The translations under genes were made by a program, and so were the position numbers. A stretch of 64,000 nucleotides of DNA from Tsukamurella paurometabola DSM 20162 (GTDB lineage Bacteria > Actinomycetota > Actinomycetes > Mycobacteriales > Mycobacteriaceae). Shown here one piece after another: positions 22,415 through 62,184 of the stretch (its first letter is position 1; each line of letters opens with the position of its first letter). Below the pieces are notes generated by a model. It did not search any database. It was not told where the DNA came from and was given only the letters and a program-made list of their open reading frames with translations. The DNA lies in contig NC_014158.1 of NCBI RefSeq assembly GCF_000092225.1, positions 1,550,001 through 1,614,000 on the forward strand, read 5' to 3'.

Positions 22415-23407
22415 ATGAAGGGCAAGATCGTTCTTGAGGAGCACATCAGCACGGCGCGCAATGACCGCACGTGGGACAGTGCGGGCGAGTCGGCGCGAAA
22501 TGGAGCGTCATACATGGCCGCTGTGGAACACCGGCTCCGCGAGACCGATGAACGCCTGCTGGAGATGGATGCGTGCGGAATCGATTATTCGATTCTGTCG
22601 CTCACCTCGCCGGGCATACAGTCCATCACCGATACCGCCGAAGCGATCGATGCTGCTCGATCCGACAATGAAACGATCCAGCAGGAGTTCGTTGATCGGG
22701 CCCCGACCCGATTCGGCTGGTTCGCGGCGGTTCCGCTGCAGTCCCCCGACGCTGCCGCAGACGAGCTCCGGCGCGCGGTGGGAGCCGGTGCTGTCGGCGC
22801 ACTCATCAATGGCTACACGGATCTTCCGGACGGCACGGCTCGTTACCTCGATCACCCGGACAACCACGTCTTCTGGGAGACAGCGTCAGCCTTGAATGTC
22901 CCCGTATACCTGCACCCGCGAGAGCCGCTGCTCGGCCAAAGGAAGGTGTACGAAGGCTACGACTCACTCGTCGGATCTGCATGGGGTTTCGGCCACGAGA
23001 CCGCGACCCACGCCATTCGCCTGATGCTCGGCGGCATCTTCGATGAGTTTCCCGGCCTCCAGGTGATCGTCGGTCATCTCGGGGAGGGCCTCTCGATCCT
23101 ATTGCCGCGCCTGGAGCACCGCCTGCGGAAACAACGAAATGGTATCGGCCTGGGTACTGCGCAACTGCCCGTCGGCGACTATTTCCGGCGGAACTTCTAC
23201 GTCACGACCAGCGGGCACTTCCACACCAAGGCTGTCCTGTCTGCAGTGAGTGAACTCGGGGTCGATAGGGTTCTGTTCTCGGTTGATTACCCCTATGAGG
23301 ACATGGGCGAGGCGACCGAGTGGTTCGACCACGCCTTGCTGGCCGAATCAGACCGGCTGAAGATCGGCCGGGAGAACGCTCAACGGCTCTTCTCGCTCGG
23401 ACAGTGA
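22415..23407 (+). CDS. Gamma-resorcylate decarboxylase-like amidohydrolase
   Basis: A 330-residue amidohydrolase of the ACMSD/hydroxybenzoate decarboxylase group. It aligns from the first residue with gamma-resorcylate (2,6-dihydroxybenzoate) decarboxylases. The metal-binding E8 and H10 (KIVLEEH), H167 (VYLHPREPL), H221 (VGHLGEGL) and D291 (LFSVDYPYED) are all kept, with LMLGGIFDEFPGL and RRNFYVTTSGHF as family segments. Such enzymes reversibly decarboxylate hydroxybenzoates in the cytosol. No resorcinol hydroxylase or ring-cleavage gene is nearby, so the true substrate is open. The GC content looks lower than in the flanking core genes. Confidence 0.82.
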   Translation: MKGKIVLEEHISTARNDRTWDSAGESARNGASYMAAVEHRLRETDERLLEMDACGIDYSILSLTSPGIQSITDTAEAIDAARSDNETIQQEFVDRAPTRFGWFAAVPLQSPDAAADELRRAVGAGAVGALINGYTDLPDGTARYLDHPDNHVFWETASALNVPVYLHPREPLLGQRKVYEGYDSLVGSAWGFGHETATHAIRLMLGGIFDEFPGLQVIVGHLGEGLSILLPRLEHRLRKQRNGIGLGTAQLPVGDYFRRNFYVTTSGHFHTKAVLSAVSELGVDRVLFSVDYPYEDMGEATEWFDHALLAESDRLKIGRENAQRLFSLGQ

Positions 23408-23427
23408 CACCTGCTGCGTCCGCCGAA

Positions 23428-23661
23428 TCATCGCTCGCTCTTCCCTGCCATCGGTAGCTGAGCCTTCTCCTCGTCGGGCTCGGTTTCTCGCTCAGATGCG
23501 CAGACCGCCACGACGTCGTTGAGCCGGAAACGCCGGACGCCGCTCGGTAGCTGAATTGCGGGTATCAGCCCCTCGGCTGCCCAACGATTGATCGTGCGGG
23601 GCGACACTGCCAGAATTTTCGCAGCTTCAGAAGTTGATAGCAGGCGTGAATTATGCGCCAT
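23428..23661 (-). CDS. Small BldC/MerR-like helix-turn-helix protein
   Basis: A 77-residue protein with a winged-helix DNA-binding domain of the BldC/excisionase type: LLSTSEAAKILAVSPRTINRWAAEGLIPAIQLPSGVRRFR. An acidic, Glu-rich tail follows. The ATG at 23661 has AGGAGG 10 bases upstream, which rules out the longer open frame. It converges with the decarboxylase gene, with 20 bases between the stops. It could regulate the decarboxylase or the porin, but no operator link is visible. Confidence 0.8.
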   Translation of the reverse strand: MAHNSRLLSTSEAAKILAVSPRTINRWAAEGLIPAIQLPSGVRRFRLNDVVAVCASERETEPDEEKAQLPMAGKSER

Positions 23662-24074
23662 GTTTTGATCCCTCCTGATCATCGTAATGAAATTCCCCGC
23701 GAGTGATGTGTATTCACACGCAATATGAATCGGGTACGTACCGGGCGCCTTTGGCGGTACATGAATTCTTACACCGTGATCCATGGCGTCGAGGCCCATA
23801 GCCGGAGCGGATCTGCGGTCCCCTCTTGCTACCCGATCGCTCCGGCGCCACCGTAGCGGATTCTGCACACAAGAATTCGGTATGGCGACCAGGCGCGAAG
23901 CGGTATGGCCGGTGAGGATGATGGCGGCGAGCCAGTGTTGCTTCGGCGTTACAAAGTGGGCCAAGCGAGCCATCCGGGCCACGGTATGGGCAATTGTGAC
24001 GTTGGACTCGTTGCCGAGTAGTAGCGGGCGATGATTCGATTACCGCGAGCACCGGTTTCGGCCGTAACGGACCG
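23662..24074. other. 413-base intergenic stretch, no convincing gene
   Basis: Lower GC than the core genes. Open frames on both strands (for example 23783-24034 +) lack good starts and family resemblance. It holds the ribosome site of the HTH gene, a perfect palindrome ggtacgtacc (23733-23742) and a short tgtg/caca pair near 23707. It probably carries the promoter and operator of the HTH gene. Confidence 0.4.
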
Positions 24075-24299
24075 GTGGTATTGATTCCGAAAGGCGACTG
24101 TGAGGCGCGGCGATGCGAGGTGAATGGTAGCTGTCTCAGGACGTGTGCGGCGGTAGCTGTCGGAACCGCGTTGATGTGGTGGGGTATCACGATGTGTGGC
24201 GGGCTTCTTGCAGAACAGTGGCAGATGTTCGGTGAGGTCGGAGTCGTTCTTTTCTGCTCAGGACTTGCCGCATTCATCGTGTTGGTGCTGCGGCGATGA
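24075..24299 (+). CDS. Hypothetical small membrane protein
   Basis: Up to 74 residues, with two predicted membrane helices (CAAVAVGTALMWWGITMCGG and VGVVLFCSGLAAFIVLVL) and an RR end. The GTG at 24075 is open, but a GTG at 24120, just before the first helix, is as likely. No family is recognised. It precedes the MspA-like gene by about 130 bases on the same strand. It may be an accident of composition, although the two-helix pattern is clear. Confidence 0.35.
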   Translation: MVLIPKGDCEARRCEVNGSCLRTCAAVAVGTALMWWGITMCGGLLAEQWQMFGEVGVVLFCSGLAAFIVLVLRR

Positions 24300-24428
24300 C
24301 GCATATCTTTGCGCCCCGTAATCGAGTCGGTGGGCGCGCCTGAACACAACCGAGTATGTGATTCGACTCACCGAACTATCTACATATTCGGGTTGCGTTT
24401 AGTTGTACCTTCGGGGTTGTATGTGTTC

Positions 24429-25268
24429 ATGGCCAACAACAATATTGTCAATGCAATTCGCGTCGCCGCCACCGTATCGATGTCTGTTCTGATCGCGACT
24501 TCGGGCGCGTTGTCGGTATCCGCTGAACCGAACACGAAGCCGGCTCACACGTCGTTTCCAGACCGATCGGTCGTCAAAGAGACGCCCACCGGTGTGCTCG
24601 TCCGGGTGGGTTTGCGGAAGCCTCAGGTGGATGTGTATCCGCCGTTGGACTCCTCGCCGTTCAGCAGAGAGGCATTCCTGTCGATGACCGGCGCCGTGGC
24701 GCTGGGGGGCAACGCGAAGGAGATCGCGAAGTCGAAGACCTCACTCGATGTGGGGTATCAGATCGGATATCCCGTGACAGTGGCGAAAGACGGGGTGAAG
24801 GTTGGTCTGGTCACTCCCAATCTCACGGTGAACGCCGGGCTGACCCCCGAAGTCGGTGTGGGCGCGAACGCCGGCGTCACGCCGAAGGCGGGTGTCGACG
24901 GTTCCGTGACGGGTGGTGGTGGAACTTCCGGTGGAAACGGGTCGGGAACGGTGGGCGGTAACGCCGGTGTCGAGGTTCCACTCGGGGTGAACGGGAGCGC
25001 GAAGGTCGGCGCTGACCTCGGGGCGAAGAGCGACATCATCCCCAGTCAGAAATTTGATTTCACCATCGGTCACGGCGAAATCAAAGAGGTCTCCTTGAGT
25101 AAATTCGATGTCAAGAAGTCGGACGCGATCCTGGAGGTCGGTGGCACGGAAGTCAGCGTCACGGCCACTGCCGGACGGGTGAGTATCCGTCCCTACGTCC
25201 GAGCGACGATCGAGACCGATCGTGGCCGGATCACCACAGTGGTGTACGGAGACGTGCACTATTTGTGA
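24429..25268 (+). CDS. MspA-like porin family protein with a Gly-rich insertion
   Basis: A 279-residue exported protein with a signal peptide (residues 1-31, ending SVSA-EP). Segments match the mycobacterial MspA porin in order: FSREAFLSMTGAVALGG (MspA LTREWFHSGRA), LDVGYQIGYPVTV (LELGYQIGFPW), VTPNLTV (TPNI), GHGEIKEVSLSKFDV (GPGIQEVATFSVDV) and GRVSIRPYVRATIETD (GVLLRPFARLIASTG). Between the TPN strand and the GHGEI strand sits an unusual repeat of about 60 residues, rich in Gly, Ala and Val (VGVGANAGVTPKAGVDGSVT). MspA proteins form octameric channels in the mycolate outer membrane. The ATG at 24429 gives the best signal peptide. Confidence 0.75.
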   Translation: MANNNIVNAIRVAATVSMSVLIATSGALSVSAEPNTKPAHTSFPDRSVVKETPTGVLVRVGLRKPQVDVYPPLDSSPFSREAFLSMTGAVALGGNAKEIAKSKTSLDVGYQIGYPVTVAKDGVKVGLVTPNLTVNAGLTPEVGVGANAGVTPKAGVDGSVTGGGGTSGGNGSGTVGGNAGVEVPLGVNGSAKVGADLGAKSDIIPSQKFDFTIGHGEIKEVSLSKFDVKKSDAILEVGGTEVSVTATAGRVSIRPYVRATIETDRGRITTVVYGDVHYL

Positions 25269-25506
25269 CGACCATCGACCGGCGAATTCTGCCAGTGAGA
25301 ATCGTCGCCTTTTCTCGTTGTTGCCGCCTATAGCGTAAGAGAGCCGCGGCCGGATGGATTTCCTGTGTAGAGGACGTCTCTGCTCGGGTTGTCCACCGAT
25401 GCGGCGGCTCTCGACACGCGTTCATCGCCGATGGACGCGTCCTGCGACAGTTGCTCGGAGAGCGCTGTGAAGGCGCCCGACGGCAGGTTTGAAGAAGGTG
25501 ATCGAT

Positions 25507-27096
25507 GTGACTGGCAATTTCGCGCGGCGGCAGTTCATCCTTTCCGGCGCAGTGTGGGCGTCGGTGGTGTTGGGCCTGGCCGCATGTGGCAGCAACCTCC
25601 GAAAGTCCGATGATGACGGTCCGGTCGAGGTAGCGGTTGAGGCCGGACGGATTCGCGGAACCACGGAGACTGGTGTCGGGGTGTTTCGAGGTATTCCCTA
25701 TGCGGCGGCCCCGACGGGAGATCTGCGTTTCAAGGCCCCCGTTCCGGCTCGCGCGTGGCAGGGGGTTCGTGACGCCAACCGGTTCGGGCCGATGCCACCG
25801 GCAGGTGACCCGCAGCGTAATGAGCCGTCGTTGGACGTCGGAATCACGAACGGGGGAGATGAATGGCTCACGCTGAACGTGTGGACCACCAACGCCGGAG
25901 GTTCTCGACCCGACCTGCCGGTACTGGTGTGGATTCACGGGGGTGGCTACACGACGGGGACCTCAGCTGATGCGCGGTACAACGGTGCGGCCCTGGCCAA
26001 ACGAGGTGTCGTCGTGGTCACGTGCAACTACCGGGTCGGTGTGGAAGGGTTCGCGCAGATCAGTGGTGCCCCCGCGAACAGGGGTCTGCTCGATCAAATC
26101 GAAGTCCTGCGCTGGGTACGCGACAACATTTCCGTATTCGGTGGAGATCCGGGAAACGTCACGATCTTCGGACAGTCGGCCGGAGCAGGCTCGATCGCCT
26201 GCCTTCTGACATCACCGCTTGCCCGTGGGCTCTACCGCCGCGCCATCGCGGAGAGTGTGCCCGGTGACCTCTTTTCCGGAGCGCTTGCCGAGGAGATCGG
26301 AGGGGCTATCGCGCAGCAGCTCGGCGTGCGCCCCAGCATCGAGGAACTGGCGCGCTTCGCTCCGGCTGCGCTGGCGGAGGCCGCGCGGTCCACACGCCGA
26401 GACCAGTGGGGAGCCCGGGCAGTGATGACCACGGGATTCGCTCCCGTGATCGACTCCGTATCGTTGCCCGAGTCGCCGTGGCGCGCGTTGGCGCGTGGCG
26501 TGGCCCGCGATGTGCCGCTCATCGTCGGGCACACCCAGCATGAGTACAACAGCCAGATACTTCAAAAAGGTGGATTCGGCGCGGTGTCTGCAACGGATGT
26601 CGACGAGGTGCTCGGTCTCGTTCCGGGCGGCGCAGATGCCTATCGCCGTGGATATCCTGAGCTCGATGACGCGCACCTCTACGAAGTCGCTTCTTCGGAT
26701 CTGATTTTCAGGATGCCCAGTTTGCATCTCGCTCAGGCTCATACAGGAGCGGGAGGTACCACGTACCTCTATGAGTTCCTCTACAACACCAAGGGGGCTG
26801 GTTCTGGCCATATGGCTGAGCTGCCACTGGTGTTCGGTACGGTCGAGAGTTCGGCGGCAGGCGTAGCGCTCTACGGTAAGCCCGCGCCGGACAGTGCGCT
26901 CTCTCTGGCCGAGGAGATTCAGAGTAGGTGGGTGTCGTTCGCGCGCGGTGGCGACCCCGGATGGCCGGCGTACACTCCGGCTGAGAAGCTGACGCGGAAT
27001 TTCGATGCCGCATCCAGCACCGGGCGGTATCGCGAAACAGTGTCCGACGACATCTGGAACGGGACGAATTTCGACCCGATCGTTATCGAGTCATGA
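25507..27096 (+). CDS. Carboxylesterase type B, exported (Tat-like lipoprotein signal)
   Basis: About 529 residues. The N-terminus has RRQFILSG followed by a hydrophobic run and the lipobox LAAC, a twin-arginine lipoprotein pattern. The catalytic domain has VFRGIPYAAAPTGDLRF, EWLTLNVWT, VWIHGGGYTTG (oxyanion hole), the nucleophile in FGQSAGAGS and the histidine in GHMAELPLVFG. It should hydrolyse ester substrates at the outer face. The GTG at 25507, with AGAAGGTG upstream, gives the most natural signal; TTG 25489 is also open. It converges with the iclR-type gene and has a 238-base upstream gap with no gene seen. Confidence 0.9.
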   Translation: MTGNFARRQFILSGAVWASVVLGLAACGSNLRKSDDDGPVEVAVEAGRIRGTTETGVGVFRGIPYAAAPTGDLRFKAPVPARAWQGVRDANRFGPMPPAGDPQRNEPSLDVGITNGGDEWLTLNVWTTNAGGSRPDLPVLVWIHGGGYTTGTSADARYNGAALAKRGVVVVTCNYRVGVEGFAQISGAPANRGLLDQIEVLRWVRDNISVFGGDPGNVTIFGQSAGAGSIACLLTSPLARGLYRRAIAESVPGDLFSGALAEEIGGAIAQQLGVRPSIEELARFAPAALAEAARSTRRDQWGARAVMTTGFAPVIDSVSLPESPWRALARGVARDVPLIVGHTQHEYNSQILQKGGFGAVSATDVDEVLGLVPGGADAYRRGYPELDDAHLYEVASSDLIFRMPSLHLAQAHTGAGGTTYLYEFLYNTKGAGSGHMAELPLVFGTVESSAAGVALYGKPAPDSALSLAEEIQSRWVSFARGGDPGWPAYTPAEKLTRNFDAASSTGRYRETVSDDIWNGTNFDPIVIES

Positions 27097-27107
27097 ATCC
27101 GGCGCGA

Positions 27108-27938
27108 TCACTGAACCTCGCCGAACCCGGCGAGGTCGGTGGATATGGCGCGGGCGGCGGTGATCAATTTCGATAGGGTGCCGTCGTGAAGATTCTCCCT
27201 GTATCTCACGGTGGGCATGGTGAGGGTCGCGGCGGCGAGGATCCTCCCCTGAGGTGTACGAATCGCGGCGCCGAACGCGGCGACGCCGTGTTCGGTCCTC
27301 TCCAGGTTGACGGCGAAATCGGATCGGCGAACGGCCGCGAGGCGCGTCAGTAGTTCGGAGAACTCTACGTCGGTCAACGGTGGTGTGACCGGAGTGGAGT
27401 TCTGTCGATCCCTGGTGCGTGTCGACGGGTCGAGATACAGATCGCGGAGCTCGTCCTCCGCGCAATCGAGGAGGAGAATCTGTCCGGCGGCAGATATCCC
27501 GGCGTCCATGACGTGGCCTCGTCGATCGCCGATTCGGAGTAGCCGGTGACCCTCGGCGCTGTAGACGAAGCGTATGTGAGTCCCGACCCGGACGACCAGA
27601 TTCGCTGTCTCTCCGGTTGCGGTCGCCAATTCGTCGAGATGTGGCCGCGCGATAGCGTCGAGCGCACGCAGCCATCCCGATGATGCCGGTGGCACGCCGA
27701 GTGCGGGCCCCGGCATGTACTGCTTGTCGGGCCCCTGTACCGCGAATCCCCGGAAAACCAGCATGTTCAAAAGGCGGTGTGCGGTGGAATCGGCAACACC
27801 GAGTTCGGTGGCCGCAGTACTGACTCGCAGCGCGCCGACGTCGCGGAGAATGAGAAGCAGTCGGAGTGCGTTATCAACGGAGGCGATCGCGTAAGTCGGC
27901 CTGTCGGTGGGTCGGCTGTCGACCCGAACCTTCTTCAT
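27108..27938 (-). CDS. IclR-family transcriptional regulator
   Basis: A 276-residue regulator with the N-terminal winged helix (ASVDNALRLLLILRDVGALRVSTAATELGVADSTAHRLLNML) and a C-terminal effector-binding GAF-like domain (TGETANLVVRVGTHIRFVYSAEG, DAGISAAGQILLLD, FAVNLERTEHGVAAFGAAI). IclR proteins sense small metabolites, often aromatic acids, and control adjacent catabolic genes. It is divergent from the oxidoreductase gene at 28078 and convergent with the carboxylesterase gene, so either may be a target. The ATG at 27938 gives a normal length. Confidence 0.92.
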   Translation of the reverse strand: MKKVRVDSRPTDRPTYAIASVDNALRLLLILRDVGALRVSTAATELGVADSTAHRLLNMLVFRGFAVQGPDKQYMPGPALGVPPASSGWLRALDAIARPHLDELATATGETANLVVRVGTHIRFVYSAEGHRLLRIGDRRGHVMDAGISAAGQILLLDCAEDELRDLYLDPSTRTRDRQNSTPVTPPLTDVEFSELLTRLAAVRRSDFAVNLERTEHGVAAFGAAIRTPQGRILAAATLTMPTVRYRENLHDGTLSKLITAARAISTDLAGFGEVQ

Positions 27939-60680: not shown

Positions 60681-60768
60681 CGGGGCAGACCTCAGTCGGC
60701 GCGAACGCCCGACGCGAGACCCACCCGTAGGACGACTGCGGCCCCTCCCCGGAGTGCGTGGGTTCTAG

Positions 60769-60811
60769 CGATCCCCGCAACACCGCGGATAGCAAGGAGT
60801 TGCGGGGATCG
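60769..60811. repeat. Internal inverted repeat near the IS30 left end
   Basis: CGATCCCCGCAAC (60769-60781) and GTTGCGGGGATCG (60799-60811) are perfect complements 17 bases apart. It covers the start of the transposase gene, so it could be a transposase binding site or a hairpin limiting translation. Confidence 0.6.
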
Positions 60812-62184
60812 TGCATTCACCGATGGTGAAGAAGAGGTTCTTCAAGGAATTGGACGTGTCTGACGGCAATGTGTCGGTCGCTGCTAGGGCGGCGGGGGTG
60901 ACAGTGAATACGGCGTTTGGATGGATGCGCAGGGCGGGCCTGCGTGGACGTGGGAGCACTAGCAATGGTGGTCATCCCGGCCGGGCCGAGTACGACCGGC
61001 TTCGCCGTGAGGGGGTGCTGCGGCCGGACGCTGCTCGGCGTGTCGGTGTCAGCGTTCGCACTGCTGGGGACTGGGATCGAGGGGTGCGCAAGATTGGCGA
61101 TACTCGTATCCATCCCGACGGACGCAAGATCGATTACCTGACAGGTGCGGTCACGTGGGTCGGAGTGGAATCGGATGCACCGAGGCAGCGGAGCCTGCAT
61201 CCACGGTTTCTGACCTTGACCGAGCGGGAAACTATCGCTGACATGCGCCGCGAGGGGGCATCGCTGCGGGCCATCGGCAGGGAGCTCGGCCGGCCAGCAT
61301 CGACGATCAAACGGGAGATCGACGCTGGCGTTGTCAACGGTGCCTATCGCCCGCATCAGGCGCACCGCAGGTGGGAAAAGAGCCGGTCACGGCCGAAGCC
61401 AGCGAAACTGGCCCAGGCCGGTCCGCTGCGGGACTACGTCGAGAACAAACTGCAGGACCAGTGGTCCCCAGAGCAGATATGTCACTCTCTAGTGACCGAG
61501 TTCCCCAACGAGCAAAGTATGCGTGTGAGCGTCGAGACGATCTACCAGTCGATCTACGTTCAGGCTCGGGGCGGCCTGCGCCGTGAAGTCGCGATGGCCT
61601 TGCGAACGGGCCGCACCCGCCGCAAGCCCCACCGCCGCGCCGAACATCGCACCAGACGATTCGTCGACAAGATGGTGATGATCTCCGACCGGCCCGCCGA
61701 GGTCGAGGATCGAGCCGTGCCAGGCCACTGGGAAGGTGACCTGATCGTCGGTACTCGCAGCGAGTCCGCGATCGTCACACTCGTCGAACGCTCCACCCGC
61801 TACGTCATGCTCGGCCACCTGCCTGGCGGCCACTCCGCCGAAGAAGTCCGTGACGTGCTGGTTTCGTTGATCGGAAATCTCCCAGGACATTTGCGGGGAT
61901 CACTGACCTGGGACCAGGGCTGCGAGATGGCCGCCCACCAACAATTCACGGTCGCCACCGGGGTTCCGGTCTACTTCTGCGATCCCCACTCACCCTGGCA
62001 GCGCGGAAGCAACGAGAACACCAATGGACTACTGCGCCAGTACTTCCCGAAAGGCACCGACCTGAGCGCCTACGGCCGCGAAGACCTCGAACTCGTCGCC
62101 CAGAAACTCAATCGCCGACCACGCAAAACGCTCGGCTGGAAGACACCAGCCGAGCGTTTGCGTGACCTCATTACAGCTCGCTAG
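60811..62184 (+). CDS. IS30-family transposase
   Basis: 457 residues. An N-terminal HTH part resembles a helix-turn-helix transposase domain (SVAARAAGVTVNTAFGWMRRAG). The IS30 HTH is FLTLTERETIADMRREGASLRAIGRELGRPASTIKREID. The catalytic core has HWEGDLIVG, LTWDQGCEMA and SNENTNGLLRQYFPK, with 33 residues between the last Asp and Glu, the DD(33)E of IS30. It is complete. GTG 60811 and ATG 60823 are both possible starts. Confidence 0.93.
   Translation: MHSPMVKKRFFKELDVSDGNVSVAARAAGVTVNTAFGWMRRAGLRGRGSTSNGGHPGRAEYDRLRREGVLRPDAARRVGVSVRTAGDWDRGVRKIGDTRIHPDGRKIDYLTGAVTWVGVESDAPRQRSLHPRFLTLTERETIADMRREGASLRAIGRELGRPASTIKREIDAGVVNGAYRPHQAHRRWEKSRSRPKPAKLAQAGPLRDYVENKLQDQWSPEQICHSLVTEFPNEQSMRVSVETIYQSIYVQARGGLRREVAMALRTGRTRRKPHRRAEHRTRRFVDKMVMISDRPAEVEDRAVPGHWEGDLIVGTRSESAIVTLVERSTRYVMLGHLPGGHSAEEVRDVLVSLIGNLPGHLRGSLTWDQGCEMAAHQQFTVATGVPVYFCDPHSPWQRGSNENTNGLLRQYFPKGTDLSAYGREDLELVAQKLNRRPRKTLGWKTPAERLRDLITAR

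Follow-up and report, generated by a model that had tools for sequence, protein, structure and literature searches.

The window gene and its family

What kind of channel would be built by an MspA-family porin whose stem hairpin is 88 residues long, against 39 in MspA? The gene that raises this question lies on the forward strand at 24429..25268 of the window, the 64,000-nucleotide stretch of DNA analysed here (C1:1550001-1614000 of a genome searched as two contigs of 4,379,918 and 99,806 bases), with its ATG at 24429 and its stop codon ending at 25268, and encodes 279 amino acids. Residues 55-276 match the Pfam MspA family (PF09203; E 1.3e-42, 146.1 bits against a cut-off of 22.9), the best PDB match by sequence is MspA (1uun, E 7.8e-8), and the score against the NCBIfam porin MspA equivalog model NF053716 (30.9 bits) is below the cut-off of 280. 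As judged from these matches, the window protein is a member of the MspA family and not MspA itself.

The N-terminus is hydrophobic and has, judged by eye, a cleavage-like site ending in Ala; residues 1-32 (24429..24524, this and the following features all on the + strand) are a probable signal peptide, with cleavage after ...ALSVSA. Sequence and model place the first half of an MspA-like body at residues 33-114 (24525..24770), and its second half (25038..25265) begins inside IIPSQ and contains GHGEI. The stem hairpin region, residues 115-202 (24771..25034), lies between them at the site of the MspA stem hairpin. The likeness to MspA proposed in the earlier note is borne out by the AlphaFold monomer in its confident part but not in the stem, which is below pLDDT 50: the top matches of Foldseek and VIA-align are 1uun (MspA) and 2v9u (the MspA rim domain), with 24 and 26% of the structurally aligned residues identical. 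Because the confident part has the fold of the MspA rim domain, the rim is kept. The earlier note, which placed the change in a part that helps to shape rim and constriction, is thus partly right: what has grown is the stem hairpin.

The gene is flanked by an amidohydrolase (22415-23407, +), a MerR/HTH_17 regulator (23431-23730, −) and, just upstream of the porin, a 74-residue ORF that has hydrophobic stretches but matches nothing in Pfam (24075-24299, +), and is followed by a carboxylesterase (25489-27096, +) and an IclR regulator (27108-27938, −). No tie to the porin was seen among these neighbors (22415-27938).

The window gene is one of 12 MspA-family paralogs in this genome and belongs to an ordinary porin family, found in all 16 Tsukamurella genomes searched. 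At E 1e-3 the window protein itself has matches in 10 of the 16, and at E <1e-30 in only three, its own genome included; at E 1e-6 it matches 103 of 401 genomes of the family-level group, in 17 of 31 genera. A scan of genome contigs with the single window protein found no relative; when alignment A2 served as the query, 46 stretches matched, which make up 40 loci. A tblastn search of plasmids and phages (E 1e-5) for a mobile origin returned no match. At least two MspA-family genes lie within 6 kb of one another in 15 of the 16 Tsukamurella genomes (G008 is the exception), three are adjacent in this genome (L002, L005 and L011; G000:C1:3376193-3378525), and two near-identical window-like long-hairpin porins of T. 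spumae (L042 and L052, G012:C56) are about 5.7 kb apart.

Composition and alternation of the hairpin

The glycine-rich stretch reported between the TPN and GHGEI segments of this MspA-family ORF is real, as composition and the PF09203 match both indicate: the 68 residues from LTVNAGL to ADLGA include 21 Gly (31%) and 11 Val (16%), and the rest of the protein has 8% Gly. Its description as a Gly/Val repeat holds in part, in that a two-residue alternation of hydrophobic and polar residues recurs in the protein, but no DNA repeat is present there. Tandem Repeats Finder returned no rows for 24700-25100, and a repeat search found a single 13-base copy pair, both copies outside the glycine-rich stretch. 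An origin of the stretch by DNA-level repetition or slippage is rejected on these searches and on comparison with a diverged paralog (L003, C1:304796-305596, 69% identical to the window protein), in which a 14-residue tip is identical as protein and 71% identical as DNA.

The alternation in the 88-residue hairpin is strong (z 7.0 over 5000 shuffles), whereas z was 1.1 and 1.6 in two stretches of the protein that served as controls. From this alternation we infer a descending amphipathic strand at residues 132-161 (24822..24911) and an ascending one at residues 174-203 (24948..25037), joined by the glycine-rich tip GGGGTSGGNGSG at residues 162-173 (24912..24947). Both arms contribute, with z 4.6 for the descending arm (plus the nine preceding residues) and 6.0 for the ascending arm. 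The longest zig-zag run of the hairpin, 26 residues, was attained in none of 20000 shuffles; by a strict count the run is only 12 residues in the descending arm and 27 in the ascending arm. Read by alternation, the two 30-residue arms would present LVALPVVAAVPAVGV and VGAVVLVGAVALASI outward and TNGTEGGNGTKGDST and TGNGEPGNSKGDGKD inward. Under an assumed equal-strand register, position 9 counted from the tip would pair a Lys on one strand with a Glu on the other, the latter being Asp in the paralog.

The long β-hairpin is absent from the AlphaFold monomer, in which mature residues 108-134 and 136-168 have pLDDT values below 50. Stem residues 82-126 of a short-hairpin control (L074), also modelled as a monomer, are likewise below 50, and since that control fails at the same place, the low values are uninformative rather than negative.

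The hairpin is conserved against L003, although saturation at synonymous sites, present in three of the four regions, makes the pN/pS ratios rough. The hairpin is 80% identical in amino acids (pN/pS 0.17), the C-terminal body 75% (0.19) and the N-terminal body 55% (0.38), and pN/pS in the signal region is 0.67.

Stem length among relatives

We compared stem lengths as residues between the GYQIGY and IIP anchors in 59 rows including MspA, for which the second anchor was placed manually; rows in which an anchor was missing were left out, as were those with the last 120 residues in common, and the rows kept contain no Cys-bearing Tsukamurella paralog. The window protein and L003, with 88 residues each, are at the top of a range from 31 to 88. 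Copies from T. spumae and Tsukamurella sp. TY48 have 73, a Rhodococcus phenolicus-type copy 65 and L068, which bears the same genus code as the latter, 82. The remaining Rhodococcus rows have 49-56, Gordonia rows 46-56 and Nocardia rows either 54-63 (six rows) or 31 (four rows, the shortest of all). In answer to the search for homologs proposed in the earlier note, longer hairpins recur among relatives in a graded series, and the Tsukamurella tip motif was not found in the 103 ORFs collected outside the genus.

MspA is a scaffold for nanopore sequencing, and its constriction is very short. A natural series of stems from 31 to 88 residues would suit the study of how barrel length and exit chemistry relate to conductance and selectivity.

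A tip motif in Tsukamurella

The tip has a consensus of roughly GQGGxSGGQGSGSV. Of 128 MspA-like ORFs of Tsukamurella, 29 carry the pattern G[GQ]GGx[SNT]G[GF]xx[SG]G[ST], and these come from 12 of the 16 genomes; three further genomes (G001, G006 and G009) have look-alikes, and none is listed in G010. A slightly looser pattern matched none of the 103 ORFs, 83 of them distinct, that were taken from other genera, a set that is not a census because its members were chosen for their resemblance to L012 or the window protein.

A tree built with the hairpin columns removed from 67 selected rows, of which 27 were drawn from the 128 Tsukamurella ORFs and 40 were others, placed the window protein and L003 with 11 short-tip Gordonia rows (13 rows, support 95/80), L042 and L043 with three other Gordonia rows (5 rows, 99/85), and 15 Cys-bearing Tsukamurella paralogs apart (100/100). 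The program flagged several branches, including that of the window protein, as long. The motif rows L029 and L013 took no resolved place near the preceding groups. Grouping all 21 motif rows together was rejected (p-AU 2.4e-61) and grouping only the window protein, L003, L042 and L043 was not (p-AU 0.159), values that are weakened by the motif having been noticed before the test was framed. Together with the tree, the rejection of the single grouping indicates that at least two branches carry the motif. The tip carriers are not one clade on this hairpin-free tree, which suggests genus-specific selection or reuse, or ancestry with losses; the history of the motif may be one gain followed by losses, convergence or an old transfer. 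The DNA of the window tip is 57% identical to those of L042 and L001, 52% to that of L012 and 48% to that of L057, which lends no support to a recent exchange of the tip among branches by gene conversion.

Among the Cys-bearing genes, L012 (G000:C1:4212567-4213454) has at its 3' end (C1:4213289-4213454) a copy of a sequence that in the window (60757-60920) belongs to a transposase-like gene. This copy explains why its C-terminal tail is unlike the long Pro/Ala/Lys-rich tails that extend beyond the porin domain in L047, L048 and L049, which are possibly wall-contacting segments. The window has a transposase-like gene (60757-62181), presumably IS30-like, whose ORF (60811-62181) has HTH_38 and rve domains; 164 bases of it (60757-60920, to the query end) are repeated at nine further places on the chromosome at 95-100% identity.

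A longer barrel or a flexible loop

We consider it probable (roughly 0.65) that the window gene encodes an MspA-family porin of the mycomembrane in which the stem forms two long amphipathic β-strands, giving a longer barrel with a glycine-rich turn. The protein would be exported and assemble into an MspA-like ring, an octamer by analogy with MspA. Each subunit would contribute two long strands with V, A, L and P toward lipid and T, N, G, S and charged residues toward the channel, joined by the GGGGTSGGNGSG turn at the periplasmic end, and the resulting channel would let small hydrophilic solutes through by diffusion. The greater barrel length is suggested by the alternating 88-residue sequence; relative to MspA it would amount, by our own arithmetic, to very roughly 20 extra residues per strand and perhaps 5 nm if fully paired. 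A glycine-lined exit would replace the Asp90/Asp91 ring of MspA. A Gly/Val-biased sequence could by itself yield alternation, which counts against this reading, although the shuffles preserve composition.

Alternatively, though somewhat improbably, the barrel might be of normal MspA-like length and the extra ~49 residues a flexible glycine-rich periplasmic loop, which may plug the pore or touch arabinogalactan or peptidoglycan. The 12-residue glycine-rich tip and the low pLDDT across the region are consistent with such a loop, and conservation of the tip among Tsukamurella paralogs is as expected of a contact site. However, a free loop needs no alternation, which is significant in each arm, and the short-hairpin control has low pLDDT as well. 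Gating or ligand binding by a moving glycine segment, as the earlier note proposed, we regard as very improbable: the corresponding MspA segment sits at the pore exit, and some flickering of open pores is described in PMC9233653 for PorARr, an MspA-like porin of Rhodococcus ruber, but the same text calls PorARr channels quite homogeneous, without the switching to substates of its neighbor PorBRr, and the Pfam search found no separate domain in the segment. With 12 MspA-family genes in the genome, one might imagine that this paralog is decaying or has lost its function and that its low-complexity segment is a mere expansion, but this is very improbable, given an open frame, an N-terminus resembling a signal peptide, a pN/pS that is low for the hairpin and for the C-terminal body against a 69%-identical paralog, and a stretch that is not a DNA repeat.

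A broader and quite speculative idea, which we think unlikely, is that at least two separate MspA branches in Tsukamurella share a genus-specific and strongly conserved glycine-rich tip on a stem up to twice that of MspA as if their channels spanned the arabinogalactan, with a glycine collar touching a genus-specific wall component or setting the exit aperture. The conserved tip would also offer a way to test if porins of the mycomembrane extend into the underlying wall.

Comparison with known systems

The window protein differs from MspA, whose constriction is treated in PMC3377714, in lacking the Asp pair at the aligned constriction positions and in having a glycine-rich tip. The nearest relatives found outside Tsukamurella, porins of Gordonia and Nocardia (among them L136, L139 and L130), have a GYQIGYP-like segment and the same arrangement, but those nearest the window protein have hairpins of 46-63 residues; their turns are GSGGG or GTGGG in several Gordonia and AP.PGAQ in Nocardia, and the Tsukamurella tip motif was not found there. 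Within the genus, the paralog groups L001, L012 and L057 have a closely similar glycine-rich tip and an extended hairpin, although they form the separate Cys-bearing branch and share 24-28% identity with the window protein. Among the open-licence papers listed by the literature searches, none was noticed that deals with the window gene or with the tip in Tsukamurella.

PMC9233653, which credits Dorner et al. 2004, states that Tsukamurella species possess channels of the MspA superfamily. It describes PorARr (WP_003937791) as having an insertion of ~60 residues between aa 130 and aa 190, which, if these numbers refer to the precursor, we take to fall in the stem and constriction; like the window protein, compared here with that published description, PorARr is thus MspA-like with an insertion. 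Its channels are cation-selective with a conductance of 3.06 nS, and those of PorBRr, the insertion-free neighbor of about MspA length, have 5.53 nS, a difference that fits a longer or narrower path. Since PorARr was measured, a conducting long-insert MspA-like porin is, by that account, already in print. The stem of the window protein is extreme in length but graded, and its published counterpart has an insertion of similar length; the genus-specific tip is the part worth following.
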